Below the pieces are notes generated by a model. That model was given only the letters and a program-made list of their open reading frames with translations, was not told the DNA's origin and did not search any database. 64,000 bases of DNA from Eutreptiella sp. 'Long Island Sound 2002' (Eukaryota > Euglenozoa > Euglenophyceae > Eutreptiales > Eutreptiaceae): the NCBI GenBank assembly GCA_964036045.1, contig OZ038392.1:42828978-42892977 (forward strand). The letters are read 5' to 3'. Position numbers and translations under genes: made by a program. Of this stretch, positions 14,454 to 51,290 are shown in pieces. The stretch's first letter is position 1. Every line of letters starts with the position of its first letter.

Positions 14454-15266
14454 CTGAAATTCATTCAGACAAACGTTACCTCTTTGCGCGTCCATCACGA
14501 GGACGTATTCAATTTTCAGGCAGATGTGATTGGAATGGAAGAAACCCAGCTCACTGAGGCTGGGCAACGCTGCACGAAGGCAATTGCAAAAGAATGGGGC
14601 TGGGAATGCCACTGGGGAAAACCCCTGGGCTCCCCAACAGGGGGCATCTGGGGAGCTCCCCAAGGAGGGGTGGGACTTTTGTTCAGGAAGGGCTGGAGTG
14701 TCCGCAAGGTTGAACCAGATCTAGACGACCCAATTGCCCGCAGGCTGTGGCAATCAGGGCGCTGGCTACACATGCGGGCGGGAATCGGTGCAGGGCACTG
14801 TGTGCTGAACATATGTGTGGCCTATGGCATCCCAGGCAACGAATCTTTGAACCAGGAGTTCTGGGAGCAGGTGGTTTGCTATATGAGCAAACTAGGCAAT
14901 GCTAGATGCATCCTGCTAACGGACGCAAATTTTAATTTCGACCTGCTGCACAAAGTTCCTGCCGCACTCCTGACGGCGCTGGCAGACGGCTGGCTGGTGG
15001 ATGCCGACCGCACTTTTAGCGTTCTCCATGGCACACCATGTGCATGTGGCTTCACAACGGCAGGCAAACCCCCCAAACGCATTGACGGCCTCTTGGTCAC
15101 CCCAGCGCAAGCGGTCACGTTGACTGATGTCACAGCGCTGAAGTCTCATTCCCTCCCTGGGCATGCTCCAGTGTGCTTCACTTTCTCGCTTGACGTCCCG
15201 ATGCAGAAAGTTGTTAAAATGAAGAAACTGCCTCCTTTCTCCCCCCCCCCCCCCCAGATCGGCTGA
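14454..15266 (+). CDS. LINE ORF2 N terminus: apurinic-type endonuclease domain
   Basis: The frame after the C16 run (14411-14426) shows the exonuclease-endonuclease-phosphatase signature in order: TNVTSL near the start, ADVIGMEETQL (catalytic Glu), GGVGLLF, ILLTDANFNF (the usual GDxN region), RIDGLL and SLPGHAPVCF (the C-terminal His motif). This domain nicks the target DNA for target-primed reverse transcription. The frame ends in TGA only because it slips at a C17 tract (15239-15255). The next frame continues directly into the rest of ORF2. The start codon is uncertain: an in-frame TGA lies at 14439, and the conserved block begins about 14454. Confidence 0.8.
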   Translation: MKFIQTNVTSLRVHHEDVFNFQADVIGMEETQLTEAGQRCTKAIAKEWGWECHWGKPLGSPTGGIWGAPQGGVGLLFRKGWSVRKVEPDLDDPIARRLWQSGRWLHMRAGIGAGHCVLNICVAYGIPGNESLNQEFWEQVVCYMSKLGNARCILLTDANFNFDLLHKVPAALLTALADGWLVDADRTFSVLHGTPCACGFTTAGKPPKRIDGLLVTPAQAVTLTDVTALKSHSLPGHAPVCFTFSLDVPMQKVVKMKKLPPFSPPPPQIG

Positions 15267-18200
15267 GGACACTCAGAAAATTTGTGACTCGCTGCTCCGG
15301 CCACACAAGGCTGAGTGGAATGCCCTGCTGCAACAGGGAAATGTCAATGACATTTGGGACAGGTGGACCTGGCTGGCCGAGGAAGTAGGCATGGCACTCA
15401 CATGCACGCATCTTACACTGGACACCCCCAACCCCACGCTCCCATTTGCACCCAAGAGTGCCCCACGGGGGCGTGGCACGGAGCGAATGCTGAAGGACAC
15501 TACGCTAGCACCGACAGGCCAGGCGCCCAACGGTGGCCCGCGCACGCGCATACTTTCCAAAATCACAGGGACCCTGGGAGCCCTTCGCTCGGTCATCCAG
15601 TGGCAACGTGCCCAGCTGGGCATCAGGGGCAAACGAGTCCCGGCATCCGCCAAACGCAAAGCCAGCCAGGTTTTCAGGCCAGGGGTGGTGCCCAGACAGG
15701 TGGAATCATCGTGGCAGGCCGCGTGCCGCCGCATGCGCAAAACGGCGCTGGCCTTTCGTGAGGACCTGCTGCTTCATGAATTTGTGGCCAGTGCCCCTGA
15801 CTCCTCCCTCCCACTCATACGCCCCCTGCCAACGCTGGTAGACTGCATGTCGCTGTATGACAGCCTATGCGCACTAGGGAAGAGATATGCCCGCTATGAA
15901 GAGCGCACGCGCATTGATAAATGGAAATCCAAAATGGACCAAGCCTGGCTGGATAGGCCAAAGGAGGTCTATCAGTGGATACAGAACGAGTACCAACCTC
16001 CTCTGGTTATGCTCCTGGACCCAGACACAAGCCAACCCACGGCGAACATCCCCCGCATGGATGAAATTCTTCATGCCTCTTGGGACCAGGTTATGCGAAA
16101 ATATGCAGACACCCCAGAGCCAGACGTGCACGCTTTTGCACAGAAGTATGATAAGTTTCTGATAAAGGGAGTGCAGATGTAGTCCACCCCTATCACAGGG
16201 TCCCGGCTCGCGAAACGCCTTAGAAAGATGGGTGTTCACACAACCACCGGCCTGGATGGCTGGTGTGTTTCGGACCTTTTACTGTTGCCCACCTGTCTGC
16301 TGGACATGCTGTCAGAAATTCTGTTTCTAGTTGAGGCAACAGGTACCTGGCCCAGGGTCCTGGCGAGGGGATACGTCTCACTGATCCCGAAAGGGGAAGG
16401 GATGATGCCGATGCAGCAGCGCCCACTGTCCGTATTGTCCCAGATCTACAGGGTCTGGGCAGGGATCAGGTTAGAGGAGTGCATGGTGTGGCAGGAACTG
16501 TGGATCCACCCGCACGCATACGGTTTTCGCAAGAAGCGCGGCGCCACTGATGCGGCCGCCTTTATCTCCATGCTCATTGAGCTACACAAACTGATGAAAA
16601 CAGTTTTGCATGGTTTTGGATTAGACTACATAAAATGCTTTGATCTAATCCCACAATCCATTGTAATGCATATTGCACTGACGCAGGGGATGTATTTGGG
16701 CACACACAGGGCCCTTTCTGGCATGTATCGCACCCTCACAAGGTGCTTTAAAATAATGGGATGTTTGGCCAGTTTTTTCGATGCCACCAATGGCATCCTC
16801 CAGGGTTGCCCATTGAGTGTGATACTCATCAACCTCCTGACCTCGGTCTGGAAACGGGTGCTGGATGCACAGCAACAGGGCATCAAAGTCGCAGTACAGG
16901 CCCTCCCCCCCAGCGATCAGCCAGCGCAGGCCCTGCAATTCATCCTAACTGCCCTTGGGTATGCGGATGATACTTATGGGTTTGCAGCCGGAAGCAATAC
17001 CCTCACCGCCCTGCTAGACTGCACCACTGACTGGCTTGAGGACACGGGTCAAGGGGTGAACGCAAAGAAATCTGTCGGCTTTTCGTCTGACGCCCGTCAC
17101 CCAGTGAAGGCGGCACTACAGGGGGTGCCCTTCCCTATCTCTTCTGAGTTTAAGTCCCTGGGCGCGGGGGTCCGCACCATGGACGCGACTTGTTCGGGAC
17201 CGCTCATCAAGAAAAGGATTTCCAGAGCCTGCAGCCTCCTGGATAGGGTGCATGGCGCTTAGGGCAATTTTGAAAGGAGATGCGACATCATCTCCACAAT
17301 GATCACGGCCACTGGCCTGCACGCAGCAGAAATAGTACCACTTCAGCCCAAAGACCTCCTGCCCTTCGAGACTAAGGTCATGCAGACCATTTGGGGACGA
17401 TCACGGCCCGGCAGGGCCAAAGAAATCTTTTTCACGTTGCTGTGCAAAGGGCACCGGATTGCACCTACTTTGGTACTTAAGTATCATCGCATCCTGTGGT
17501 TATCCCAGCTGTGTCGCACCAGGGGTGTTGGACAGATCACAGCCCAGGCCATTTGGGAGATGACAACATTTCACAAAGGCTCCGGCCCATAGGACCGAGC
17601 CATGTCCACAGCACAGGAGTGTGGCTGGACCGCTACGCAGGGGTGGTGGGGATGGAAAGTGCCTGGGCGCCAGGAACCCCTCCTCCTATACGGGGATAAA
17701 AACACTATCAAGCACGAGGTGCGTGAACAGCTGCGCTCGCAAATGCTGGACAGCCTGGTTCAGAGACGTCCCTGCCTTTTCGCGGGGGCTCATTACACCA
17801 CATGCCGGCGCCTGGTCCAGCCCAGCATAGCGTCTTTTGCCACAGAGTTACAGCGCTCTATCCTGCGGGGCATCCTATCAGGAGCAACCTGGACAGCCCT
17901 CCGGGCCTGTCAACGTGGCATGAGAGCCACATCCACGTGCCCGTACTGTGGCAATGCTCCGGAAAACGAGGAGCACATTTTTTGGCAGTGTTCAGCCTGG
18001 AGTACGGTGCGGGACACCCACCTGCCGGGCATCAGGACGGCGGCAGCACAAATCCCAGGCCTTCCCCTCATGGACCAGTGGCCCCCATGTTTACGACTTT
18101 GTGGATTAGCCCCAGAGTTAGACACAGACAGCGTCAAGTCAGGGACAGCGCTCGCATTCATGACAGCTCTGCACAATATGTTGGTAGCCGTCTTGCAGGC

Positions 18201-19557
18201 CCGCAAGTTACGAGACACACAATCCCCCATGCTTTTCATGGGGTCGAGCCTCTCACAGCAGCTTCGGCAATACCCGTACCACCAACTGGTGGGACCCCTC
18301 CCCAGACCGGAAGACAAAGGGTTACTTCTTTTGCGTACCCCTAAGAAGGTGGAGTGGCAGTGGGAAATGCCCTTTTTGGCGGACCTGCTACGCTGGCTGA
18401 GGGAACTGCACTGGGCCCCTGAACCAGGCACAGTAACCTTCTTGGAACTCGCACTGGATTTTGAGGACTTTGCGCAACGCACCCTCCCACACGCTCCACA
18501 AGCAAAACTCAAGGGCACCACCCTTTCACTGCAGGAGAGAGGCCGGGTCTTACGACTGGCAATGGCAAATGCGCAGCGCCTGGTCACCAAAGGCCATTTG
18601 CATCCTGCGCGTGTGGTCACACGCTGCAGCTCTTTACTTCCTCTGGGGGGGCCGGCACTCTGCGGCCTGAACCGCCGCCCCTATTTCACCTGCCGCAGTG
18701 CCATGAACATGCACATTCAGCAGTTAGCGGCATACTGTGAGCGCGCGTGGGCCACCAAGGTTGGTCTCAACAGAATACACAAACTGCGCCCGTACACACA
18801 TAGGCCACGCAGAACAGCGCAGGAAGTGGAGGAGCATCGACTACAACGTGCACTCCAGGGGAATCTGCAGTTGGGGCTTGCTTCGTCCTCGGAGCAGACC
18901 ACTTTTGCCAAAGGGGGAGGGGGCTGCTCCTCCTTTGCAGCTGATTTCTTCCCTGTGATAGGGGATGGGAAGCTCCCACAGCGCCCCTACACCGGGACAC
19001 GCAGGCGCGCAAACACACACAGGGCGCCACAACCGGCGCCGCCGGCTGATCCGTCAAAATGTGCCCAGCACTCTGCTGACGCATGCACGACCTGCAAGAG
19101 ACTTCGGCGCACAGCTGAAGCATGCTGTGCGCTGGGACATCACGCTGATGACCACATAGCACGCAGACCGCAACTGCAACTATGCCCAATGCATGGCCTG
19201 CCACCGTGCCTGAGGTGCACACTCAAGCAAAGGGGAGTGCGCCACTGCTGTCAGCGGGGACACCATAAAGTGTGCACCCCAGTGCCTGCGCGCCGGAAGC
19301 GCCCACTTGCTGCACATGCACAACTGCCCAACAAACGACCACGCCTGCAAGGGCCTGCACGTATCTCTACGGGTCTGCTGAGGTCCCCACACCAACCCCC
19401 CACCCCTCCAGCCCCCAAACGCAGGAGGCCGAAAACCCCCCCCCCTCCGTCCCCACCAGCCCCAGGTCCACGGGGGCTGGAGGAGACCGTGGCCGAGGAT
19501 GTCGCCCGCCCGCTTTTCGTGACGAGGCACGGGAGAGCAAACACTCTGGATACTTAG
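15256..19557 (+). pseudogene. LINE ORF2: reverse transcriptase and zinc-binding C terminus, interrupted by three TAG codons
   Basis: One reading frame of about 1430 codons runs from the C17 tract to TAG at 19555. It is interrupted only by TAG at 16180, 17260 and 17590, with no TAA or TGA. RT motifs in order are TTGLDGW (~16240), YVSLIPKGEG (~16375), RPLSVLSQIYRVWAGIR, YGFRKKRGATDAA (~16520), LDYIKCFDLI (~16622), NGILQGCPLSVILINLL (~16792) and GYADD (16957-16971, catalytic Asp pair). A CCHC motif CPYCGNAPENEEHIFWQC lies at 17938-17991. The last ~190 codons contain a second, unusual Cys/His cluster (CX2C, CCALGHH, CPMHGLPPCLRC, HCCQRGHHKVC), then a proline-rich tail. No RNase H domain is seen. 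All domains remain in register, so the copy is either recently inactivated or tolerates TAG. Confidence 0.85.
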
Positions 19558-28245: not shown

Positions 28246-28429
28246 GCCAAGGTTGGCGCTGCACCGCAGCCGAAACAGACCGGGGGTCTTTCTGCCCCGA
28301 AACACAAATACCACCCATATCTGCTGAAACATCAATGGTTACCTTGAAAAATATCCTCCCTCCACCTTCCGAATCCAAAGAGGTGGGGTAGAGTTGAGGA
28401 AAGTTTAGGTTCAGGGGTCTGGAAAAAAA

Positions 28430-28505
28430 TTTCATGCAATTTTTTTTCGTACCGCCCCCCACCCCCCCATCCTCCAGGGGTACCCCTCGAAAAAAAAGTT
28501 GTACG
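28430..28505. repeat. T-run/CGTACC/C-run block with inverted arm, second copy
   Basis: T8 CGTACC, a C-rich core and GGGGTACCCCTCG plus an A8 run repeat the layout at 25180-25320. It immediately precedes the truncated LINE. Confidence 0.7.
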
Positions 28506-28539
28506 CCGGCACAGGAATCCCCCCCCCCCCCCCGCGACA

Positions 28540-29920
28540 CCCGTACGCACCGTATCTATACTCCGTTGGAAAAGGATACGTCCCAGGGGTTTACCACCAC
28601 CCGAGGGCAGGCACGCGCCAGGGGGATCCACTCTCCCCGGCGCTGTTCTCCCTGGTGGCATCCTTTGTGATTTTCCCACTACAAGACCTGGGTCCCATGC
28701 TGACTGTCATGATGTATGCAGACGACCTCATCATCTTCTTGGATGGAAGAGCCAACCCACAACTGTTGAAGAGGGTATGGGAAGTGGTTTCTCGTTTTGG
28801 ACAGTCTTCGGGGTTGAAGGTCAACCTGAGCAAAACGGCAGCGTTAGTTCGCAACTGTGGGGGAACGGAGTGGGCGAGGTGCTTTCGGAACATTGGAGTA
28901 GATGTCAAACACTTCGTCAAGTATCTGGGTGTACGCTTGGGGAATATTCGGCACCAACAAGATGACCAAGGATGGGGGCTGACGATAGAGCAGGCTTTCG
29001 CACCAGCGCTGCAAGAGGCCTTCCGTCGCGCTAGGGTGGTATCCACGCTGCAACTGTCAATGAACGAACGTGCATTCATGCTGACATCATGGATTCTGCC
29101 GGTCGTGGCATGGGTATCCAAGGCACACTACGCCCCAGTCTCGGTGATCAGACAACTGAAGTTGGTGTACGACGTGACTATGGGTACCAACAGCTGGGGA
29201 ATCACCCTACCAATCCTCTCACGACCAAGAACGCAAGGGGGACTGGCACTACCAGAACCAGAGCTGTTTCTTATGCACCAGGCAGCGGCTCCGTTCGTCA
29301 GCCTGTTGGGAGAGCCTCACAAAATTCCCGACAAGGCAGTGGAGACCTTCTATGCATGGGCAACAACCATAGGGTTCACACCATCCAAGGACAACCTTCC
29401 ATATATTCAATTGGGCATGGTCCGAACGGCTGATCTAACGTTCCTGGGATGGTCGGCAAAAGCACACTCCAACATTCAGCGAGTAGCCCCGCAGGTGGCC
29501 CCCCCGGCAAACCGGGACCGCCTGCCGTTGTGGCACTCTGTGTATTTCCGAAATGAGTTCAACTGCTCCTACTACAACACGAAATTGATCCGGCAGGGGG
29601 TGCTGACGTGGGGTCAATTCCAATCCCTGGAGGACGCAAGATTGTTCAATGCACTGCCTCGGACATGGAACGGGGTCTACAATCATGGCGGACAACTCCT
29701 CAACAAAGTCCCGTCACAAGGGGGGTTTGATACCCCCGCAGTTCACACCCAAAACTGGACCAGGGCATGGCTGCTCCAGTTCTACGCCTCTCAGCCAGGG
29801 GTCCGCGACCCGCAAACATCGGAGGTATGGGAACAGTTGGCACAGGCACAGCTACCACCGAGGGTTCGGGACTTTGCACAAAAGGCGCTGTGCAAGAGTC
29901 GACAAGAGGTCAAGCACTGA
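28540..29920 (+). pseudogene. LINE reverse transcriptase, C-terminal half
   Basis: Starts just before TRQGDPLSPALFSLV (~28614), followed by MMYADDLIIFLDG (~28712, catalytic Asp pair), GLKVNLSKTAAL and KYLGVRLG (thumb). A long connection region follows, with typical LINE words (FMLTSWILPVVAWV, QGGLALPEPELF). The fingers and endonuclease are missing. The frame ends in TGA at 29918 one frame away from the downstream CCHC segment, so a 1-nt indel lies near 29890-29920. Confidence 0.85.
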
Positions 29921-31337
29921 CAAGTGCCCGGTGTGCTCACAAAAGGAGACGATTAAGCACGCGATGGTCGAATGCCCCATGTTCAAAGCGGCGGCGGCGG
30001 TTATACAGCACTACTATGGCCAGGTGGAAACTGATAACGGGACATCCACAGTTCGAGACATGATGGAGTCCGACGACCAAGAATGGTTACTGAAAACGAA
30101 CCAAGGCTGGGCAATGTGGTCAGCAAGAAGTGCCCACTGGCGGTACCGGTGCGAGGTCAAGGCAGGAGCGTCGCCGGTGTTCACGTCATACCTAACAACA
30201 TGGCTAAGGGGGCTATGTGAGTGGGTGGGATTTTACACAGGGGAGCGCAGGGAACAATGGAAAGGCTTTCAAAAATCGTTGGAACAACTTCGAGACACCG
30301 GAGTGCAGCCGCGACAAGGGGAAGTGCAAGTGCATGGGGGATTGAATGCATGGTGGCAAACACACACGGAGTGCTTCACCCAAGAGAAATCAGCCAACAA
30401 TCACAGTTGGCAAGGGGCAACGGAATCACGCCCGAAGCGCCCGAGGCAGGCAGGCCCGGGAGTGCTACAAGGAGTGCAAGATCTGATTGCAGAACTGGTG
30501 GCGAAGGGCTACAGGATCGTGTACACGGACGGATCGTCGAAACGACTGAGCCACAAGGACATGCGCAGAGCCGGGGGATTTGGCGTGTTCGCGGCGGAAG
30601 ACGACCAAGGACGAGAGGTGCGCTTCTGTGGCTACGTACCAACACATCACAGGCAAACAAATAACGGAGCAGAGCTTTGGGCAGCCGTGGAAGCCTTACA
30701 GGGATTCTGGGTGCCAAAACTGGCAATCCTCACCGACTCGCAGTACCTGCAGCTGGGAGCGACTGGCAGGGCCCAACACTGGAAGTCAAAGGGATGGACA
30801 ACCACATCTGGAAAACTGCAAGTCCATGTCCCAGTCTGGGAAAAGCTGCTCCAGGAAATGGCGACGCCGGGAAGAGAAGTCAGGTGGGAACATGTCCCAG
30901 CACATGTCAACGTGCAGGGAAATGAGGTGGCGAATGGATTGGCCATGGAAGGCATGTGTTCAAGCCCAATGTGGTCTCGGCATGTTGCACCAAATTCATC
31001 ATCAGGGTCAGAGTCCACGGTAGGCTTGAGGGGAGGGTCGGGATCAGAGTCAGAGGGCACCAGGGCACTCTGGTCATCCTTGGGTATGGTACCCATGGAC
31101 AGTGATGAACTGACAAGGGAAGCATCCGGGGAGCTAGCGCCACGTGAAATGGGACCACACTCCTCAAGCAGTTCAGAAAGTGAGGAAATGAGGACAGGAC
31201 ACACACACCAGGGAGTGCTGTCGAGTGCACTGTCAGCAGCGGACACACTGTCCTTCAGCACTGATGTGAGTGACACCAGGAGGCAGCGCAAGAAGCGAAG
31301 GCTCAGGAAACGCAGGAACCCAGGACAGGGTCGATAA
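29890..31337 (+). CDS. LINE CCHC motif, RNase H and acidic/basic tail
   Basis: CPVCSQKETIKHAMVEC (29925-29975) fits CX2CX7HX4C. RNase H then shows VYTDGSS (~30518, first Asp), NNGAELWAAVEAL (~30661, Glu), LTDSQYLQL (~30731, Asp) and HVPAHVNVQGNEVAN (~30891). The last position, normally Asp, is AAT (Asn) at 30933-30935, a single G-to-A change from GAT. The domain would remove RNA from the cDNA hybrid if active. The C terminus is Ser/Glu-rich and ends in a strongly basic RRQRKKRRLRKRR stretch, possibly for nuclear or nucleic-acid binding. Confidence 0.85.
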
Positions 31338-40989: not shown

Positions 40990-41144
40990 GGCATGTGGCC
41001 ATGAATGCTGAGCTCTTGAAGCGAGGAAGTGATGTCTTTTATCTAAGAGGCACAGAGCACATGCTTGCCACTGTTGTGGGCCTCTTGTCCTTCCCCAACT
41101 GCATTGCTATCGGATATACATGCTCTGGCCATACCAAGCTCTAG
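40990..41144 (+). CDS. Candidate terminal exon, unrecognised
   Basis: Acceptor TTTTGTATACCACAG ends at 40989. About 51 codons (HVAMNAELLKRGSDVFYLRG, ATVVGLLSF, CIAIGYTCSGH) run to TAG. The beta-rich pattern looks like real protein, but I cannot assign it. Confidence 0.35.
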
Positions 41145-41529
41145 TGGAATTGCCCAGTGTAGCATCTCACATTTCCTATTTCCCGTGCAGATTCTGCTGC
41201 CCTGTGCCTCCCCATAGTCTGTGGTAGTTGCAAGCCATGCAGTGGACCGTTGTTGCTAACATCTTGGGCCATCCTTGGACGCAAAAGCAGTGAAGTACAT
41301 CGATCGATGATGGTCCACTAAAGGAGGGCGAGCATGGAAGAGGCCTAGTCCTGACCAGCTTGTCCCTCTCGGCCGCCATACTCCATAGGAGGGGGGCTTG
41401 TATTGGGGGGGGGGGGTGAACTCTGATCGGCCCCATTTCTCCGCTTCTACCCCTCTGTACATAGGCCTGAGGACTTTACAAGGAGTCGTACCCCAAAATG
41501 CTTTCACGCAATTTGGTGCGGGGTCACAT

Positions 41530-41885
41530 GTGGGTCCAAAAGTGGTCAAAAATGATTGTTCCTAGACCACTTGGGGTGTTCAAACAAGTGGTCTAAGGCT
41601 ATTTTGAGCAGTATTTGGCCCACATTATCCCATGCAAGATCCCAAAAACCCTTGAAATAGGCAACTTTAGGACCGACGGTGCCCGGTGCGTATAGGCAGA
41701 GGAGGTCCCGGGGGGATGTGCTTTCTTTGAATGCCATGGATTGTGTTGGGTACCTTTGTGGTGATAATTAATGATGAAGGGGATCACTTCTAACCGATTT
41801 GTGCGCAGTCAACACCTTTCAATGCCCCATCAGAGTGGTGCAACACGCATCGTGCATGTGCTAGGGTAGTTCACCGGTGGGTCCA
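41530..41885 (+). repeat. ~370-bp family, copy
   Basis: Part B words (CCTAGACCACTTGGGGTG, CAAACAAGTGGT) at about 41560 and part A words (GTTGGGTACC, ATTAATGATGAAGGGG, CATGTGCTAGGGTAG) at about 41750-41865. Confidence 0.7.
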
Positions 41886-41917
41886 AAAGTGGTCAAAAAT
41901 GATTTTTTTCTGGAGTT

Positions 41918-42130
41918 GGGAATGCCGTGCACGCAGTGCGCACGCAGTGCAAAGTTTTGGATGTCGGCACTCTACTTTACTCTACCCTACTTTTGGCCCC
42001 TTTTGACAAGTTTTTGGTTCCATACTGGGGTTTTTTTAGCTTCCTATGCATTTGGGGCGTGACCATTTGAATTGTCACCCTTTGTTGCCCATTTTCAACC
42101 ATTTTTGCCCATTTTCCATCCCCCATATTG
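41918..42130 (+). repeat. ~210-bp repeat, copy 2, interrupted by the DIRS-like insertion
   Basis: Matches 36675-36890. Its continuation would lie beyond 49302 if the DIRS-like element inserted here. Confidence 0.65.
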
Positions 42131-42172
42131 AACTCCTGGTACCATGATACAACTTCAAGGTGTCTGTGGCGT

Positions 42173-42281
42173 AAATGAGGTTTGCCATAAGCAAACCCAA
42201 GTTTGGTCTGTGCTGAGTTGAGTTTGTATGTATCTGCTGTGGATGTCCGCACAGTTGTCTTTTATATTTGTGTGAGGATGG
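42173..42281 (+). repeat. Split direct repeat A1 (left terminus)
   Basis: 109 bp beginning AAATGAGGTTTGCC and ending GTGTGAGGATGG. Differs from A2 (49054-49162) at only two positions (42240 T/C and 42254 G/A). Confidence 0.95.
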
Positions 42282-42831
42282 GTTCGGCTTTCAGCTTGCC
42301 GAGTGGGCAGGTGCGTCGCCATGGCATGCCCGGAGGAGCGATTGTTGGATGGGCGGGAGTCCAAGAGCAGACAATCGGGGAGGCGGAGGCGGCCCGAAGT
42401 GCCCCATCAAAGGGCGGCAGCGATGATCAGCCCAGCGGAGCCAACGACCGGAGCAAAGGGGGGGAGGGGTATGGTATGGTATGGTATGCCCTACGGTATC
42501 GGGAGTGGCTGGCGGGCCGCTCCCTCACGCTCTCCGTGTTTAGGGCCGGGGTCCGGGGCCCGCTTGCCGTGACACTCGGTTGCTGCCCTCCTGGCTCTGG
42601 GGGGGGGGGGGGCTGTCGTTGCTGCGCTCACCTCCAGCCCGTCCCCTCGTGCTCCCGCCTCCTGTGCTGGCCCGGTCCCTGTGGTCCCTGTGCAGTGCGT
42701 CCCTCCGCCACCCATGCCCATAGTCACATGCACTGGTCGGGCGTACTGGTTTAGCTGTAGAAGTCCAGGTTGGTCTACAATGTCCGTGGGCTCGCCGCAG
42801 AGCCCAATGGGAGGGGGGGAGGGGTTCGGGG

Positions 42832-43386
42832 TTGAAACACCGGGGCGCCGGATCCCTGGAGCCTTGGGCGACCCCTCCTGGTGCCCCAAACAAACACAAC
42901 GGTCAACCTGTGGCCGAACCAGGGGGGCTAGCTCAGGGGGAAGGGGTGAAGGTTCTACCCCGGGCGGATCGGCCACGCACCTCGACCCCCCGCCACATTT
43001 GGATGCAGAGCCCGCGGGGTTGGGTGCAGGTGCACTCCGAGGATCCACGCCAGCTGCGCTTTGCGATTGCGGGGCTCTGGGGCTGTGAAGAGGACGATTT
43101 TTGGATGACGTGCGAGGGGCGCGTTCTTGGGGTCGACATGGAGCTACCCCCAGACGGTGGTCACGTGTAGGTGCGTATGCGCGGGGTAGGGGGTATGCAC
43201 CCTGGATTTGCTACCCCCAACGAGATCGAGGAGGCCATGCGGGAAGAGGAGGAGCGCAAGGGTACGGCGCGAGATGGCACCCCGTCGGAGTCCAAGGCAA
43301 AGAGAGGAAAAGGGAAGAAGATGATTTCTTTCCGGGAATATACGCAATCGGGACTACACGCCCAATGGAGTCTTGTGGCACCTTAG
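42832..43386 (+). pseudogene. 5' frame with ubiquitin-like module, interrupted by TAG
   Basis: One frame runs from 42832 through TAG at 43168 and TAG at 43384 into gag (43396). Residues encoded at about 42994-43200 resemble ubiquitin: a short strand-turn-strand start (IWMQSPRGWVQVHSED), a helix-like middle, FWMTCEGRVL in place of the QRLIFAGKQL region, and after the first TAG a VRMRGVGG tail reminiscent of LRLRGG. A Met follows, so the module could be processed like a ubiquitin fusion. Then comes a basic, Glu-rich linker (REEEERKGTARDG, KAKRGKGKK). The homology is my inference from spacing and pattern only. Confidence 0.4.
42895..42919 (+). repeat. 25-bp internal direct repeat, copy 1
   Basis: Identical to 47646-47670. 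Core GGTCAACCTGTGGCCGAAC. One copy lies in the 5' frame, the other after RNase H. Confidence 0.9.
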
Positions 43387-43395
43387 AGGGACTTC

Positions 43396-44352
43396 ATGAG
43401 GTTGAGAATGGAGATCCAGACCGACCTCAACACGTTGGGTGAGAGGCGAGACGAATGGGTGGAGAAGGCAGTCAAGGCACATGGGTTGGAACTGACAACG
43501 GTGGAGTTGGTGGAGTACATTGCCTGTCATTGCTTGCTGGAGGACCTGAGGTTCGACGTGACCACGGGAAACTTCGCGAAGGCGGTGGAGGAGGGCAACG
43601 AGACCTCGTCCAGTGGCATCAATGAGGTCCTCAAGAAGCTGGAGCAGATGGAGAAGAGGTTGGAGGAGGTAAAGCTGGGGAAAGGAGAGACGGTCAGAAA
43701 GGTTCCCCCTTTGAGCAACAAGGAACTATCAGATTTGATGGAGATGGATCATAAGCCGCAGTGGGTATGCCGTTTATTGGTGTTCTTTAAGGCCGTATTG
43801 GACGGAAAGAAGGTGGATCCCCAACTGATGGAGTGCACTTCAGCCTGGAAATCGTCCGACCTCCAAGAAGAGTTGGTTATGTCACCGGAGAAGGCGAAGA
43901 TCAATGACGTTTGGACATCGGGCGCTTGGCTGGAGGCCATAACCGCCCCGATGGACGGGTCGGACAGCGGAGGAGGCCTCCCGATTCCGGCCCTGATCGC
44001 TAATTATGTTGAGAGCTTGTGGGTGCTGCTGGTGTCGGCGATGGGGTCGTACGATGAATCGTACTGTCGGCACGCGGGCAGTGGGCGGGGGAGCGAGACC
44101 CCCAAGGAGGCGGGAGAACCGCCCGAAAATTTTGGTGACACTACGGTCCCTGTGGAGGAAGTCCGTCGGAGGCTAGCCAGCCTGAGGAGCAGATTTTCGT
44201 ATGAAAACGGGCGAAGGATCTGGATCCCGAAGAATAATAATCAGCAAAGGACCGCCATGACAGATCCGCCAGCAACGGGTTGCCGCACATGCAAGAGCCA
44301 TGGGGCGCCGGGCAAGAAGCATTGGTTTTTTGCCTGCCCCTACTACGAATGA
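43396..44352 (+). CDS. Gag-like protein of the DIRS-like element
   Basis: 318 codons, ATG to TGA. The N-terminal part is helical and charged (LNTLGERRDEWVEKAVKAHG), with a Glu/Lys-rich coiled coil near residues 70-100 (LKKLEQMEKRLEEVKLGKGE). The C terminus ends in CRTCKSHGAPGKKHWFFAC, a CX2CX9HX4C zinc-binding pattern that could bind the element RNA. Position directly before the recombinase and the zinc motif support a nucleocapsid role. The TGA overlaps the next ORF's ATG as ATGA (44349-44352), suggesting termination-reinitiation coupling. Earlier start codons upstream are cut off by TAG at 43384. Confidence 0.75.
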   Translation: MRLRMEIQTDLNTLGERRDEWVEKAVKAHGLELTTVELVEYIACHCLLEDLRFDVTTGNFAKAVEEGNETSSSGINEVLKKLEQMEKRLEEVKLGKGETVRKVPPLSNKELSDLMEMDHKPQWVCRLLVFFKAVLDGKKVDPQLMECTSAWKSSDLQEELVMSPEKAKINDVWTSGAWLEAITAPMDGSDSGGGLPIPALIANYVESLWVLLVSAMGSYDESYCRHAGSGRGSETPKEAGEPPENFGDTTVPVEEVRRRLASLRSRFSYENGRRIWIPKNNNQQRTAMTDPPATGCRTCKSHGAPGKKHWFFACPYYE

Positions 44353-45668
44353 CGGTGTCCCAACGGGGGGGGAAGAACAGGAGGAGGGGGGGGAGAGCCG
44401 GAGAGCCGTCGCGAGAAATGGAGGGAGTGGTGGGAGAGCCGGCAGACTGGTCATCATGGTGGGCGGCATGGAAACGACTCAATCGCCAGGACCCCGCGGA
44501 ATGCTCACACGCCCTTGTCGCCATGTCGTGGAGCGCCGGCACCAGAAGTAACTACGCCGTTCACATCCGGGCGTTAAGGACGCTTGCCGCCACACAGCAT
44601 GGAGTCGACAAATCCAAGTTACTGGACCGATACTTGCGTGCCCTCTTCGCCAAGGGTAGATCACGGTCATACATGCGAGGGGCCATCAACGCGGTACGGG
44701 CTTTGGAGGACTGGGGGTGGATCGACGGCGTGGTCCAGGCCAGGCATTGGCGCATGGCAAAGTCCACCATCCGAAATACGGAGGAGCAGAGGCCGTACGG
44801 AGGACTGGAAGCACTGTCCGTATTTGCACAGTCGTGTCGCACGAAGGAGCAGTGGTCCGGATTCGCCTTGGCCGTCCTCTCCTTCACGTGCCTGTGGCAT
44901 CTGGGGGAGGCCTCCGGGGTTCGACGACGGGGAATCGAGGACGAGGCCGTCTGGTTTAGATGCAACAAGAACGGTGACAAAGTCGTCCAGCGGGAGCTGG
45001 GCCCATACTCCGCGAAGTGGGCGCGGTGGCTCCGTGACTATGGAACCAGGGGTCGCCGCAGATCACCCATCATGTGCCCATCCGGGGCGCCATTGTTGGA
45101 GTCGTTCGTGGAGTACGGATTCCGGGCGACGGAATTCGCAAGTGACAGGTGGCATTGTTGGAAACGCGGGGGTGCTGCACTACAGAAGTACCTCGCCCTC
45201 CCCGCCGAGATCCGGCAGTGGTGGGGCCGGTGGAGGTCCCGCAGAGTGGCGGAAGACTACGCGCAACCACCCGAAGAGTATAAAGTATGGACGTCAATCA
45301 AGCTACCCTGGCCGGAAGCACCCTCCGAATTCGTTAAGCGCACAATGCGAGGACACGACTTCTGGCCTACGGCGCTTTCGGAGTTATTTCGGGACGGACA
45401 GCAGACTGTGGAACAACAGCCTGACGTTGGGTCCAAGCGAGCGTGCATTGTACTGTCGGATGATGACACGCCTCAGCGACCTAGAGTCCAGGTGCGGCGC
45501 ACCGTCCGGGTGCGTAGGGATGGGGGTGCAAGCCCCGTGGCATCGGCAGCGGTGGGGCCTCGAGTTGGCCGAGTGGATCCTGCAGCGCGTACGGGACGGA
45601 GCAGTTCGGGAGTGGTGCAACAGGCTCCGGGAAGTGATCGACCTCCCGCCAAGCAGCGGAGGCGATGA
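44349..45668 (+). CDS. Tyrosine recombinase of the DIRS-like element
   Basis: 439 codons from an ATG overlapping the gag stop. An N-terminal helical core-binding-like domain (SAGTRSNYAVHIRALRTL, SRSYMRGAINAVRALEDWG) precedes the catalytic domain: LWHLGEASGVRRRG at box I, HCWKRGGAALQKY at box II, WWGRWRSRRVAEDY with the candidate nucleophile Tyr304 (codon 45258-45260). At the two Arg positions of the R-HxxR-Y signature I read His184 (CAT, 44898-44900) and Lys272 (AAA), each one G-to-A step from Arg. Either this copy is catalytically dead or the family uses a variant site. A disordered basic tail ends at TGA. The enzyme would integrate the circular DNA form at the AAA core. Confidence 0.75.
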   Translation: MTVSQRGGKNRRRGGRAGEPSREMEGVVGEPADWSSWWAAWKRLNRQDPAECSHALVAMSWSAGTRSNYAVHIRALRTLAATQHGVDKSKLLDRYLRALFAKGRSRSYMRGAINAVRALEDWGWIDGVVQARHWRMAKSTIRNTEEQRPYGGLEALSVFAQSCRTKEQWSGFALAVLSFTCLWHLGEASGVRRRGIEDEAVWFRCNKNGDKVVQRELGPYSAKWARWLRDYGTRGRRRSPIMCPSGAPLLESFVEYGFRATEFASDRWHCWKRGGAALQKYLALPAEIRQWWGRWRSRRVAEDYAQPPEEYKVWTSIKLPWPEAPSEFVKRTMRGHDFWPTALSELFRDGQQTVEQQPDVGSKRACIVLSDDDTPQRPRVQVRRTVRVRRDGGASPVASAAVGPRVGRVDPAARTGRSSSGVVQQAPGSDRPPAKQRRR

Positions 45669-45699
45669 TGGTTGGATTTTGGGGAGGTTGCTGGTGTTG

Positions 45700-46965
45700 A
45701 TGCTCAGGATGTGGAGGCATTCATCGGAATTGGGTATACCACACCCGGGAGTGCATATCGGTCAGTTTTGTGTGCAGCTCACGCGGGATGCGTGGTTGAT
45801 CTGGTTAAGGGACTCCACTTCCCCGAAGTTGATTGTGGTACCATTGACTGCAGCCATTTTGGAGAAGGGGGTGGGGCCTGTGGGTAACGTCCGCATCCCC
45901 CCCTACATTTGGAGGGCATTGGTGCCGGGGAATTTTGGGGAGTTGAATAGACGATCCTTTTCTTCTCTGTCGCCTGTGACGGGTCAATCTGCAATCTTGG
46001 CTAGGGCATTGGTTGAGCACGAGGTGCTCCGCCCCTGTCGTGCGGACGGTTTGGGCCCCAATGGGTCCCTTTTCGCTATCCCGAAAAACAGCGAAAAGGC
46101 AAGCTGTATTTGCCCAAGGGGGCGGCAGCCCCCCACTACAATTGCCTAGCGTTGGGCTTGTGGCTTTTTTATAAATTGTGCATTGGAATGTCCACATGGA
46201 TTTCGTTCTGGCCGGTTATGCGGGAGTGGTGGGAGATAATGTGATTTTTGTTCCACACCAGATGGCTTCGCTGAAAGCCGACCCACTATGTCTGGGGGAG
46301 GACCCTGTATTGTGTGCATGTCATATTGATCTTAGTAACTGTTTTTTGTCTTTGAAGACCCCGGTTGAGTTTGCGGACGCTTTTCGCGTATCCATTGACG
46401 GATTGTTGTATAGTTTTGACTGTCTGCCATTCGGGTGGACGCACAGTCCAGCCATCTGTCAAGCCGTGATGGTTCGGCTGGTTCGGGACGCGGGGGTGGA
46501 GGGGGTTTTAGTTCTGGTTTATCTGGATGATGTTTTTGTCATTGGGTATGGCAGAAAATGGGTGAGTGTGCAAGCGGGAATCGTTGCATCGCGCCTAAGG
46601 GAGGAGGGAGCCATTGTCAGTCCAAAGAGCACCCTGAGGCAGTTACTGGCTTAGCCTGGATTGGAAAGTTTTTCGATTTCCATGAAGCCACGGTGTCCAC
46701 AGCGCGAGGCAATTGGCACGCTTTAATGGCGCGCTGGTGGCAGGTGGCTGTGGGCCCTTGTACGCGCCGCCGACTGTTGCGTTTTTTTGGCGGGTTGCTG
46801 CGTGCGTCCGAGTTGGGGAGTGCTGCCATTCGTGGCGCTGGTGTGGGCGCGTATTCTGTGGCAGCCGCAATGGATTGCCGATGCCTCGATAAGACTATTG
46901 CACACCCTTGCAGGCTTACCGCCATAGGGCCTGACGGCTTGGAGGCCTTTGTTTTTTTTTTTTGA
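45700..46965 (+). pseudogene. Reverse transcriptase of the DIRS-like element, frameshifted
   Basis: Three frame segments. 45700-46149 carries the fingers (FAIPKNSEKAS, ending TAG). About 46178-46654 carries HIDLSNCFLSLK (first Asp), YSFDCLPFGWTHSPAICQA and VLVYLDDVFVIG (YLDD, ~46519). About 46657-46965 carries LAWIGKFFDF and a thumb/connection (RRRLLRFFGGLLRASELG). Breaks lie near 46120-46175, 46650 and at the T13 run near 46950-46964. The LPFGW...YLDD pattern places it with DIRS/LTR-type RTs, not LINEs. Not translatable as it stands unless the breaks are assembly errors. Confidence 0.85.
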
Positions 46966-47521
46966 AGAAACCACGAGATGGGGCCGAGTATATATTTTTT
47001 GATGGTGCTTGTGACGGGGGAACCTGGAGGATGGCTCTATGGGGCTACACGGTGGGTGGGAGGGTAGGGATTGTGCACGAGGTGTTGTGCAATCAGCAAA
47101 TTGCCGAGTACGCGGCTTTGGAGTACGCGGTAAACTTCGTTTCCGCTTTGGGGTGGGACAGAGTGGGGCTGGTCGGGGATAACTTTTCAGTGTTGCTAAG
47201 CTTTGCGGCAGGAAAGGCGAGTGTGGGGTTGAAAGTGCAGAATCGTATATTGCGGCGTCTGGTATACGGTTGCACGGGGTCTAGACGAACGTGGTATCTG
47301 TGTTGGGTCCCGGGAGAGTGTAACCCGGCGGATCCATTTAGCCGCATCAGGTCGGTGTGGGGGGGGGGGACTACGGCAAGGCGCAGTTGGAGGCCACGCG
47401 TCGTCTGCGTTTGGCGATGGGGGGCCCCACAATGTTAGTTCAGCATGTATGGACCCTGGGACTGCCTGTTATCAAACAGCTGCAAGGTCATGTGGGGTTA
47501 AAGATCCGGAGACCCGCTTAG
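46966..47521 (+). pseudogene. RNase H of the DIRS-like element
   Basis: YIFFDGACDGG (first Asp), QQIAEYAALEYAVNF (Glu), VGLVGDNFSVLLSF (Asp) and WYLCWVPGECNPADPFSR (final Asp) give a complete active-site set of the DIRS/LTR type. After the G9 run at 47358-47367 the sense appears to shift frame and continue (YGKAQLEATRRLRLAMGG) to TAG at 47519. It would degrade template RNA during cDNA synthesis. Confidence 0.85.
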
Positions 47522-47645
47522 GTTTTGGTAAGTGGTGCGTGAGGAACCCCGCTGCTTAGTGCCGTTCGGACGTGGATGTGTGCGGTTGGCTAGAGATGTC
47601 GGATCCCCCGTCCCTGACGTGCCCTCACCCTGTGCTGAAAACAAC

Positions 47646-47670
47646 CACAACGGTCAACCTGTGGCCGAAC
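47646..47670 (+). repeat. 25-bp internal direct repeat, copy 2
   Basis: Perfect match to 42895-42919. Confidence 0.9.
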
Positions 47671-47816
47671 TGAGTGAGGGTGCCGAAGAGAAATGTGGGG
47701 GAGCACAAACTCCAGAAGGGGCGTGCGATTGATCATGTGGACGGCCGTGGGTGTTAGGGCTGTTTGCACTAACGTGGTGAGGGGGTTGGACAAGCGGGCT
47801 GGTGTTAGCTTAGACT

Positions 47817-48671
47817 TTGTTTACGATTGTCTTGCCACAGTCGTTGTCTTACATGCCGAGACCAGTGGTGCTGCCGTGCTTCCACCCCTTGCCGCCACCG
47901 GCGCCATCGCATATGGGCCGGCGCAGGCGCCAGCACGATTGGGGGAGGTGGGAGGAGGATCGGCTACGGGGCATCGCACGCGCCCACCCGGTGCCGATTT
48001 TGCGGGGATGGGCGAGAGAGCTGACGGCGGCTGTGGACGGATTGCGGCGCTGGGGGAAGATTGTGGACGCGGCGTGCGTCTTGTATGCGGTCTTCATGCT
48101 TTTCCCAGGTGCCCTGGACTTGCCCGCGCTCCTGGTGGGGGCGTTTGAATACTTCATCAGCGTGGGGGCCACACGTCCCGCGGCCTCCATAAGCTTTACG
48201 GGGACGGGGCTGGCGGTGGCCCCGGGAGTGGTGCGGGCGGCGCTGCGGTGGAGATATGGGGCGGCAGCGTCCATTGCATGGAGGGCGCCTCGGAGGCACT
48301 TCCTGGCGGGCGCAGTAGGGCAGGTGGTGTATAATATAATATCGCCCCTCCGGGGCTAGGGGCCATTCGACCTCCGGGGCGAGCGACAGTGGGTGCTGGA
48401 GCGGTGGTGGCGACTGCCACAGTGCAGGTTGGTGGTGTTGGTTGGATGGTGTCCAGGTTTACTGGCGGGCAGTGCGGGGCACGCGGTGGGGTTGTCGTAC
48501 ATGGGTTGGCTGGCGTGTGCGCAACATGGCACGGTTTACGTGGGGCGTGACCCGGGCAGGGCGGTGGAGCTCATCAGTCAGTGGCTGCCGGACGTGTGGG
48601 AGGCTTGGTACTTGGTGCGGCATGCAGCCGGAGTTATTGCAGGCACCGCCCTTGGTTGTGCGACCGGGTGA
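47817..48671 (+). pseudogene. Unidentified ORF after RNase H, one in-frame TAG
   Basis: A frame of about 284 codons continuous except for TAG at 48357. It begins Pro/Arg-rich (HMGRRRRQHDWGRWEEDRL), then has hydrophobic, helix-like stretches (AACVLYAVFMLFPGALDLP, RLVVLVGWCPGLLAGSAG). DIRS1 carries a methyltransferase-like domain after RNase H, but I see no methyltransferase motif here. It may be a membrane-associated or novel accessory product. Position inside the split repeats shows it belongs to the element. Confidence 0.45.
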
Positions 48672-48841
48672 GGGGGTAAGGTGCTAGGAAGGGGCGGTAG
48701 GTCGTGAGAGGCTTTACCGCGCGGTGGTAGCCATCGCGGAGGACTGGTACGCGCGACGGGTGCCGGTACGTATGATGAGAGACGCGCCGGAGTACTGCAG
48801 CTAGGATCGCGCGGGTAGTGCGGCTTGTGAGCTGGTAGGAA

Positions 48842-48877
<36 letters not shown>
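48842..48877 (+). repeat. (GT)n microsatellite inside the DIRS-like element
   Basis: GT array merging into GCGCGCG, about 95 bp upstream of B1. Confidence 0.95.
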
Positions 48878-48970
48878 CTTTGGACGGCGCGGGTGATGAG
48901 GCCTTACAGCCGGGTTGAGCATTCCAGCGTTGCGACAGCCGTCCGTCACGTCGGTGTAGGGGAGTGTTTG

Positions 48971-49055
48971 CGCCCAGGCTTCGCATACCGACGCTTCTTT
49001 TCGTTTTTTGTGTGCGTGTGCTTTTGCATGTGGACGGGTATGGATTTAGACCAAA
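48971..49055 (+). repeat. Split direct repeat B1
   Basis: 85 bp from CGCCCAGG to TTTAGACCAAA, five differences from B2 (49218-49302). Overlaps A2 by the two to three A residues at the junction. Confidence 0.95.
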
Positions 49056-49162
49056 ATGAGGTTTGCCATAAGCAAACCCAAGTTTGGTCTGTGCTGAGTT
49101 GAGTTTGTATGTATCTGCTGCGGATGTCCGCACAATTGTCTTTTATATTTGTGTGAGGATGG
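49054..49162 (+). repeat. Split direct repeat A2
   Basis: 109 bp, 107 identical to A1. Fused head-to-tail with B1 at GACCAAAATGAGG, the sequence expected from joining the element's two ends (GACCAAA and AAATGAGG). Confidence 0.95.
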
Positions 49163-49217
49163 CCCACCCTCCCACCCTTGACAGTTTCTGTGGCACAGGC
49201 TGCCTTATGCGACATCA

Positions 49218-49302
49218 CGCCCAGGACTCGCATACCGACGCTTCTTTTCGTTTTCTATGTGCGTGTGCTTTTGCATGCGGACGGGTATGGATTTAGACCA
49301 AA
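49218..49302 (+). repeat. Split direct repeat B2 (right terminus)
   Basis: 85 bp ending GGATTTAGACCAAA. Flanking sequence CTAGTATATTTTGC begins at 49303. Confidence 0.95.
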
Positions 49303-51290
49303 CTAGTATATTTTGCGCTATTTTGGCAGCAATCACACAATTTGAAAGTCGAGCAAAAGAAAATCACGGTTGAGTTACTATTTTTTTTGACAGAGCTGCA
49401 ACCTGTTTTGGCAGTTTCGTTTGTGATCCCCCCCAATTACCTTGCTTACCCCATCCCACCCCCACCCCCACCCTTGTGCCGCCCTGCACATTGTGCTGCA
49501 GCATTCCTTGCTTTGTGCTCTTAGGGGTTGCTGGTGGTTTTTCATGGCATGACGCCCGGCGTCCTTCAGGTGGGCTGCCTCAGATTTCTCATTGAGCTGT
49601 TGACCAGATTCCATCTTTGAGGCATGCTCCATTCCAAGTGGTCTAAGGCATCTGCAACACTGGAGTGCGAGTGATTTGTATCGAGTGCAGCAATCAAGGC
49701 TGCCGGCAGCATGCAGTACAAGTTACTGTTATTCATGTCATTGAGCTTCATCATATTTGGGCTGGTTTACTATGGCTCCCCCTACTTGCAGCGCTCCATG
49801 GAGATGCAGGTTGACGTCGGGCCCTGAGCAGTGTCACATCCAATTTTGTCAGGGGATAGGGTTCGGAGTCAGCCACAGGAGGTGGGCATTTAGACTGTCC
49901 CGCGATGAAACCATTTGCGAGGATGGTTGGTAGCCTGGGTGATTTCATTGCCCAATACGTCCGTTCATCCCAGCTGTGGGTCCTGATAAATCCTGTGGGG
50001 GAGGGGGTCTGTGGGGTGTGAGGGAGGTTGGTATCCAGCACAATGAACCAAAGATCGTGGTTTTGGAAACTGTGGTGCTGCTTCCTGAGAACCAAGTCCT
50101 TGTGGGTGGTGTGCAAAATGCGGCCAATATTTGTTTGTGATGGACAGATACCCACAGTGCATCAGCACCCTCTTTTAAGGGACTATTTCTTATGTTCCAC
50201 GTGGTAACCTGACGTTTCTTGGTAGTTGACTAACGTCTGTTGGTGGTTGCTTGACGGTGATTGGCCGCCACTTGTCAGCAACAAGTAACTAAGGCTGGAA
50301 ACTTTGTCGAGACAGGTCCACATGCAGTGGTAGCCTGGCAAGGTGCAAAACCTGTGCAAGGCACATTGTACCATTTGCGCAATTCACATTTGCTGAGTGG
50401 CTTCACCAGCGGCGAGCAGGTTGGGTGTGGCAGCTGGCTTGAGGAGGGATCTGAGCGATACTTTGGTTTGCTTGCGCCGATGAACAATTGGTAGAGCCAG
50501 GGCAAGGGGGAGCTGCAGGACGTGTCAGAAGGTTTTACAACACCAAAGAGTGGTTGAATCCTTGGTTTTGGGTGTATGTCGTAAATTGTGTAATTTTTAT
50601 GTGGTGAAATGGCAGGTGCAAACAAAAATCATATTGGCGAGTGTTGAAAAACTGGGTTCTCGCTTTTACAGCGAAAACAGCCACTCGCCCTTGCAGCAAT
50701 AAATACTTGCCTTCACCGCAAAAGCAACATTACACTTCGAGGCCCTCTGTACCCATTCTTTGAAACCTCGTCTCTTTGGGGACTCCTAGACCAGTCGGCG
50801 ATATGGGTCATGTAACCACTCTGTTGCTCGCCCCGTGACGATAGGGCATATAGACAGTAGGGGCTATGTAGCCCCTTTTTTGCATCTCCGCTTTACGGGC
50901 CTCAAGATGCCCCCTCTAAGGGCAAGTAATTTTCTTCATTTAAACCCGAGTTCCAGCGTTTTGTTGTGCTTCCCCTCTTTTTGACCTCTTTTTGGCCATC
51001 TCATCTCTCCCTGATATGGCGGGGTTATTGGCCATTTCATTTCACAACCATTTTATTTGTCGCCGATACGGCACGTGTTCCGCAGCCACTCTTGGGTGCC
51101 AAAGGGGTGGAGGGTAGAAGCTCTATATGTTCCCCCTATATTCAACTCCACCTTGTCTTGACGCAACCACCTCTTTTGGGGTGCTGAAAGGGTGGATGTA
51201 TAAACGTACTGTTACATTGGCCGTGCCCCTCTAGTTGGCTGCCACATATAGTAGTTTGTGCTTTGTGAACTCGGTGTCCCGTCGTTAAGG
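49303..51290. other. No supported gene
   Basis: Mixed-composition DNA with a (CCCCAC)n stretch near 49455 and a fragment resembling the ~103-bp satellite near 50850 (GGGGCTATGTAGCCCC). No convincing exon. Confidence 0.5.

Follow-up and report, generated by a model that had tools for sequence, protein, structure and literature searches.

The stretch analyzed here (the window) comprises 64,000 nucleotides (nt) of Eutreptiella sp. 'Long Island Sound 2002', contig OZ038392.1, positions 42,828,978 to 42,892,977 of the forward strand. It holds a 7,130-bp element on the plus strand, measured from the start of repeat A1 to the end of repeat B2, which is one copy (42173–49302) of a tyrosine recombinase (YR) retrotransposon family of the host genome, hereafter the Eutreptiella family (Table 1). 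A direct-repeat search places the four split repeats in the layout A1...B1A2B2 at exactly the coordinates given for them in the initial annotation. A1 and A2 are identical at 107 of 109 positions (two mismatches) and B1 and B2 at 80 of 85 (five mismatches), a length and identity at which chance is ruled out, and B1 and A2 overlap by two bases. The order of the coding regions between the repeats, gag, predicted YR, reverse transcriptase (RT), RNase H (RH) and an extra open reading frame (ORF), ORF4, all on the plus strand, likewise agrees with the earlier description. That description also called the element complete, which is true of its repeat layout and gene order but not of its genes: the window copy is not intact, owing to stops, frame changes and a catalytic change. 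The RT (RVT_1) and the putative YR (a phrog_1 match together with motif spacing) within one element place the family among the YR retrotransposons (order DIRS). No inverted repeat pair of at least 25 nt is present at 41000–50500 of the window (seed 14), and with them the inverted terminal repeats of a DIRS1-like element are missing there.

Table 1 Features of the Eutreptiella family copy in the window
Feature	Position	Strand	Remarks
A1 repeat	42173..42281	+	5' end of element, begins AAATGAGG
Internal 25-nt repeat I, copy 1	42895..42919	+	upstream of gag; exact match to 47646-47670, 0 expected
gag-like ORF	43003..44352, intact part 43396-44352	+	start uncertain; in-frame TAG at 43168 and 43384; C-terminal CX2CX9HX4C
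YR (predicted)	44418..45668 (stop-to-stop ORF 44241-45668, 475 codons)	+	weak integrase-profile matches, motif spacing, sister YR
RT/RNase H	45460..47521	+	RVT_1 E 1.4e-11; ATGs 45460/45463, inferred start; at least four frame changes
Internal 25-nt repeat I, copy 2	47646..47670	+	upstream of extra ORF (ORF4)
Extra ORF (ORF4)	47853..48359	+	TAG stop in window copy; 316 codons in L017
B1 repeat	48971..49055	+	direct-repeat search
A2 repeat	49054..49162	+	direct-repeat search; B1-A2 junction is GACCAAAATGAGG, corresponding to element ends joined
B2 repeat	49218..49302	+	3' end of element; ends GACCAAA, next base C

The ORF upstream of RT is predicted to be a tyrosine recombinase because of weak matches to integrase profiles, the spacing of its motifs and a sister YR with canonical motifs. 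In the family protein P0001, His246, Trp272 and Tyr281 have the same spacing as His244, His270 and Tyr279 of E. coli XerD, and in lambda integrase the His/Trp and Tyr positions are one residue closer; residue spacing alone was used in these comparisons, as a MAFFT alignment misplaced box II. The Trp and Tyr residues are in place in eight of the nine YR rows that reach them (the exception is P0005), and the first catalytic Arg is kept in seven of the nine rows in which its box was found, with His in the window (codon 44898; box II of the window copy is HCWK) and Cys in P0007. A strict YR motif pattern, which was devised after the sequence had been seen, is matched by 10 of 200,000 shuffles. The sister YR, from the same genome, is 33% identical to P0001 over residues 18–281 and carries the canonical R...HALR...W...Y. 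A search of 5.8 billion proteins, in which the 7,998 candidates with the most shared words were scored, returned 11 matches to YR, every one from the Eutreptiella family. Sequence and profile searches of the PDB gave nothing meaningful for YR, and an AlphaFold2 model built from eight close rows (mean predicted local distance difference test score of 33.6) was too poor for a fold search.

To place the window copy among its relatives, full-length copies were sought in the host genome (2.28 Gb in 2,205 contigs) with A1 as the query, and 40 matches were scored among 408 candidates. From these 40 listed matches, 24 stretches were picked, several of them non-randomly for having two A matches 2.5–9 kb apart; together with the window they form a sample of 25 sequences that yields no copy frequencies. 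Seven copies, in the window, L014, L015, L016, L017, L018 and L019, read A1-gag-YR-RT/RH-ORF4-3' repeats, with part of gag inverted and B2 cut to 28 nt in L018, and with an insertion interrupting YR in L019. The complete A1...B1A2B2 layout is kept in the window, L014, L015, L016, L017, L019 and a deleted copy, L024. All 17 RT starts of the family in the 25 sequences, two of which are the arms of one inverted duplication (L035), are preceded by YR, and none of the sequences has YR downstream of RT within one element, in keeping with the order first read from the window. The apparent cases of YR after RT in L032 and L033 are neighbouring or nested elements and not the order of one element. An 18th RT start, which belongs to a diverged sister in L032, also has YR upstream; it falls outside the distance rule and was excluded from the 17.

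The YR and RT genes overlap. Measured from residue 1 of P0012 to the YR piece covering its end, the overlap is 31 nt at 17 of 17 RT starts; other YR pieces extrapolate it to 32–44 nt, and from the ATGs inferred for the window copy it is about 200 nt. P0013, the representative of a 114-member RT/RH cluster, has an overlapping frame that runs through the YR gene into RT. In the YR core (44578–45246), conservation of the RT frame is 0.62–0.66 in three rows and 0.81 in P0015, and that of the YR frame is 0.84–0.89 in six rows. Conservation of the RT frame is mixed at 45247–45430 (0.66–0.90), and at 45431–45665 both frames are conserved (0.83–0.96 and 0.79–0.88). RT proper therefore starts near 45460 or somewhat earlier, overlapping the end of YR. 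These observations bear on the caution, raised at the outset, that a recombinase gene or element nested in an RT element could mimic this gene order. Nested or interrupted copies do occur in the genome (L019, L032 and L033), and apart from them only that caution speaks for a composite. Such an origin has practically no chance of being correct, since both frames are conserved where YR and RT overlap; in addition, the YR junction is identical at 17 of 17 RT starts, and P0013 runs across the YR gene in a different frame. By tblastn with P0012 and P0013, the RT/RH region of the window extends to 47518 with at least four frame changes. The match to the RNase H profile RVT_3 has an E value of 0.1 in the window and of 4.5e-5 in the diverged relative P0016.

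The four genes show a common pattern of substitution. Changes were counted at codon positions 1/2/3 against copy L017, a common reference that makes the comparisons non-independent, and gave 423/262/867 for gag (11 copies), 254/202/1005 for YR (10 copies), 662/397/1917 for RT/RH (10 copies) and 409/330/892 for ORF4 (9 copies). L033 is too near L017 to be very informative on gag, and the third-position bias recurs in the other copies. From these counts, gag, YR, RT/RH and ORF4 are read as conserved proteins, and the third-position excess means that ORF4 is therefore a real gene. In the YR/RT overlap, where YR position 1 is RT position 3, the counts in the YR phase are 130/52/90, and changes are thus fewest at the position that is not third for either gene. 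In L017, all four frames are open and the repeats are identical (A, 110/110; B, 85/85); at least this copy is shown to have inserted recently. The window copy, in contrast, is dead, older and broken, with two TAG codons in gag, His in place of the catalytic Arg of YR, frame changes in RT/RH and a TAG in ORF4. Assembly errors could account for two of the RT/RH frame changes, which are located at or close to long homopolymers. Several in-frame TAG codons raised the idea that TAG might be a sense codon, which was dropped, as both gag TAGs are Gln codons in L017.

The ends of the copies are consistent with integration of a circle by YR. The B1-A2 junction reads GACCAAAATGAGG in seven of eight copies, the remaining copy having GACTAAAATGAGG, as expected if the ends GACCAAA and AAATGAGG were joined with two shared A residues. 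The dinucleotide 5' of ATGAGG is variable: of 18 strings at 5' ends, including two from A2 copies that follow a diverged B1, 12 have A at −1 and 14 have A at −2. B2 is followed by C in all 19 strings, which represent 17 distinct flanks. For 13 elements with distinct flanks, the shared end match is at most 3 nt in 12; in the remaining one, L014, the flanks share 5 nt (CTACA), which is what a short target duplication would produce, and a match of this length arises in 469 of 4,000 random sets of 13 flank pairs. Because matches are this short in 12 of 13 elements and that of L014 is within chance, there is no regular target duplication. In the proposed mechanism, RT/RNase H would copy the element RNA into DNA, the internal B1A2 would supply the joined order of the two ends and so lead to a circle with a B-A junction, and YR would recombine the circle, at its A-rich junction, with a short site in the genome that is mostly A-rich and precedes a C, so that the target is not duplicated. 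The RNA route, the circle and the order of these steps follow the circle model of YR retrotransposons, which the ends appear to fit.

Taken together, the anatomy and the host indicate that the window element is probably a copy of a VIPER-like YR retrotransposon family in a euglenid, with the plan A1-gag-YR-RT/RH-ORF4-B1A2B2. In the available text of PMC6681497, VIPER and TATE have three ORFs, gag, YR and RT/RH, with A1...B1A2B2 repeats in T. cruzi, C. fasciculata and L. braziliensis; that of PMC12278014 adds that YR and RT/RH overlap and that target duplication is absent. The Eutreptiella family has the same order with overlapping YR and RT/RH (17 of 17 RT starts), split direct repeats in the window and in other copies, and at most 3 nt of flank match in 12 of 13 elements. 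As described in these sources, VIPER of T. cruzi and C. fasciculata thus shares with it a gag-like ORF, overlapping YR and RT/RH, the A1...B1A2B2 layout, the lack of target duplication, the lack of a methyltransferase and a host within Euglenozoa. The Eutreptiella family differs in the conserved ORF4 after RT/RH, the internal 25-nt repeat, the box II Lys of YR and the end of gag, which is CX2CX9HX4C, whereas some VIPER gags are described with CX2CX4HX4C. TATE has the same ORF order, and the L. braziliensis copy with all repeats has the same repeat plan; as reported in that portion of PMC6681497, however, TATE was first found within telomere repeats, its ORF3 has a Peptidase_A17 (RH) match and its gag has no clear CH-box. 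The host had been taken for an alga; it is one, but a euglenozoan and thus a cousin of the kinetoplastids, and because of this, kinship with VIPER/TATE is the likeliest reading.

Several points weigh against this assignment. No Pfam or NCBIfam model matches YR at its curated cut-off. The integrase profile phrog_1 matches P0001 weakly (residues 36–287, E 0.0017, one of eight rows), the YR of L017 with an E value of 0.02 and the sister YR with one of 0.1, and other weak matches of the YR rows, to DUF4491 (E 0.023) and phrog_35627 (E 0.037) among others, point elsewhere. The catalytic residues of YRs generally follow the rule R-H-R-Y, which the sister YR obeys; in the Eutreptiella family, Lys replaces the second catalytic Arg in all 10 rows in which box II was found, with Arg as the next residue, to give R-H-K-Y. 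The 5-nt flank match of L014 belongs here as well, and the 28-nt spliced leader used as a query of the host genome is a sequence taken to be that of Euglena gracilis. Kinship with VIPER/TATE would rest on anatomy and host, the references being compared by description. ORF4 is not described for VIPER/TATE in the available portions of PMC6681497 and PMC12278014. Finally, the YR-first order is also found in dinoflagellates, so that order alone proves no kinship: the accessible account of SymbioDIRS-Dnmt3 from Symbiodinium (PMC5890265) gives a shuffled YR/Pol order with A-coding-B-A-B repeats.

SymbioDIRS-Dnmt3 is also relevant to the proposal that VIPER-like order combined with intact split repeats would define a distinct lineage. 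This proposal does not stand, since VIPER and TATE have both features (PMC6681497 and PMC12278014, as far as their available text goes) and SymbioDIRS-Dnmt3 is similar; both the order and its combination with split repeats were already known. The accompanying statement that the recombinase precedes RT in VIPER/TATE matches the gag, YR, RT/RH order given in the portion of PMC6681497 at hand. According to the same excerpted text (PMC5890265), SymbioDIRS-Dnmt3 resembles the Eutreptiella family in its algal host, its A-coding-B-A-B repeats and its two forms with shuffled YR/Pol order, but has a cytosine methyltransferase in its Pol, where none was found in the Eutreptiella family, and the hosts are distantly related. 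Ngaro elements (Cafeteria burkhardae and others) share the A1-[ORFs]-B1A2B2 plan, a YR replacing the integrase and the lack of a methyltransferase; their order, as given in the available part of PMC8547959, is gag, RT/RH, YR, whereas YR is upstream of RT at 17 of 17 starts here. The PAT, Kangaroo and TOC3 elements (nematodes, Volvox and algae) have split direct repeats and occur in algae, but are described in the accessible portions of PMC4157794 and PMC3266345 as encoding a methyltransferase, with internal repeats and YR orientation that vary by subtype.

Acquisition of a PAT/Kangaroo/TOC-type element from the green-algal endosymbiont or another alga, followed by rearrangement, would draw on the PAT-like elements reported in chlorophytes (PMC8226300 and PMC3266345, in part) and on a Euglena DNMT1 of chlorophyte affinity tied to secondary endosymbiosis (PMC12344493, in the text available). 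It is very improbable: no methyltransferase domain reaches the Pfam cut-off in eight window pieces, six proteins and four L017 frames, so that neither a PAT-like or DIRS1-like element nor a Dnmt3 form is recognized, and the protein searches returned no green-algal relative, a weak point as nearly all matches are unnamed. A TP_methylase match in P0016 (E 0.18) is below its cut-off and lies within RT.

A different origin, in which an independent euglenid YR lineage arose from a PAT- or Ngaro-like ancestor, acquired YR-before-RT separately and works in the same way without being kin to VIPER/TATE, is unlikely but deserves more weight than algal acquisition. Homoplasy of YR-element features is argued in the portion of PMC4157794 available, the shuffled order of SymbioDIRS-Dnmt3 (PMC5890265, in part) provides a parallel, and ORF4 and the box II Lys set the Eutreptiella family apart. 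Deep support is also weak in the RT tree, which was built from 17 of the 31 returned RT proteins (P0010, P0013 and P0014 trimmed): 4 of 14 inner branches are well supported, eight are drawn open and long branches meet, and the tree shows only that the window family groups together. The tested anatomy nevertheless matches VIPER/TATE down to the overlapping YR and RT/RH frames, in hosts of the same phylum, and two diverged sisters keep the gag-YR (L031) and YR-RT (L032) order, which is therefore old in the euglenid lineage. With VIPER-like kinship as the preferred reading, the Eutreptiella family, its sisters, VIPER, TATE and the TATE-like ORFs of Diplonema might, with about equal reason for and against, form one Euglenozoa-wide YR superfamily that predates the split of euglenids, diplonemids and kinetoplastids and has kept its gene order and split repeats since, the euglenid branch having a fourth conserved gene. 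In Diplonema, more than 60 ORFs resembling TATE, MULE and Helitron proteins are mentioned in the available text of PMC10161547.

Rather than a new kind of element, the euglenid family is probably the extension of a known group to a further branch, and the supposed oddity of its gene order is removed, as YR-first is the normal order in the VIPER-like group. In the sources as available, VIPER-like elements have so far been described from kinetoplastids, in most species of which the copies look degenerate, and Diplonema is mentioned as having TATE-like ORFs; with a family that has many copies and a member with open frames, the group would also reach the euglenid branch of Euglenozoa. Such a family would also give a much richer set of sequences from which the RT, RH and YR of VIPER-like elements could be placed among reverse-transcribing elements, where a link of the VIPER-like RH to hepadnaviruses is reported (PMC6681497, in part). 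ORF4 is an added conserved fourth gene; searches of the PDB with it gave nothing meaningful. No protein named VIPER or TATE appeared among the protein-search matches, most of which are unnamed. The Eutreptiella family is not described in the accessible portions of the literature on such elements in Euglena and algae (PMC3266345, PMC4157794, PMC10161547 and PMC12344493; Repbase and subscription papers lay outside the search), and the main text of the 2019 E. gracilis draft genome paper (PMC6366073) contains neither 'retrotransposon' nor 'transposable'. No relative with flanking DNA was confirmed in the viral_contigs and genome_contigs collections, which may omit records near the host.

Two diverged sisters of the family are seen among the sampled stretches. 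The first, at 1988–4312 of L031 (minus strand; L031 overlaps L040), has a gag with a CX2CX9HX4C end followed by an intact YR of 444 codons; no RT was found in it, and 114-nt repeats stand once before gag and three times after YR. A second copy of this type, with a shortened YR, lies at 763–1704 of L042. The other sister, a fragment at 904–3305 of L032, has YR and then RT/RH on one strand, its RT being 50–58% identical to P0027, and sits between the A1 and gag of a family copy.

Other stretches hold reduced or rearranged copies. L024 is a 2.76-kb copy in which gag is joined to ORF4 and YR and RT are missing (repeat identities of 92/96 for A and 82/85 for B), possibly a non-autonomous form. L022 and L029 are solo A-B remnants; parts of YR-RT-ORF4 are inverted in L025, RT-ORF4 is inverted in L026, and L035 is a head-to-head duplication. 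L013 has two solo A-B units 6.4 kb apart (301–484 and 6727–6910), which are probably a duplicated host block because their flanks are identical and no family genes lie between them. All seven copies with the complete gene order retain the 25-nt repeat I at both sites with few changes, and L017 has a third copy of it; the repeat may serve as a signal for processing or initiation. Weak Pfam matches of the gag piece, the best of which is HCV_NS5a (14 residues, E 0.0038, below the cut-off), were rejected as homology and taken as chance.

The presumed E. gracilis spliced leader has 2,566 + 2,523 = 5,089 matches in the host genome with at most two mismatches, and the reversed control has 0, which marks the host as a euglenid. 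Of the 100 places listed, many fall within the initial 1.6 Mb of contig C2, and a spacing of about 17.3 kb recurs, which suggests large repeated blocks. The presumed dinoflagellate spliced leader has 0 matches in the window, and a dinoflagellate host was rejected. No Rfam families or tRNAs were found in the window. Two further elements, both of the non-long-terminal-repeat (non-LTR) type, are present. The first, at 15223–19557 (ORFs from 12618), has RVT_1 at 16183–17262 and a zf-RVT match below the cut-off at 17593–19557, and the in-frame stops between its ORFs are TAG. The second, at 28409–31337, has RVT_1 and an RNase H (E 7.7e-23).

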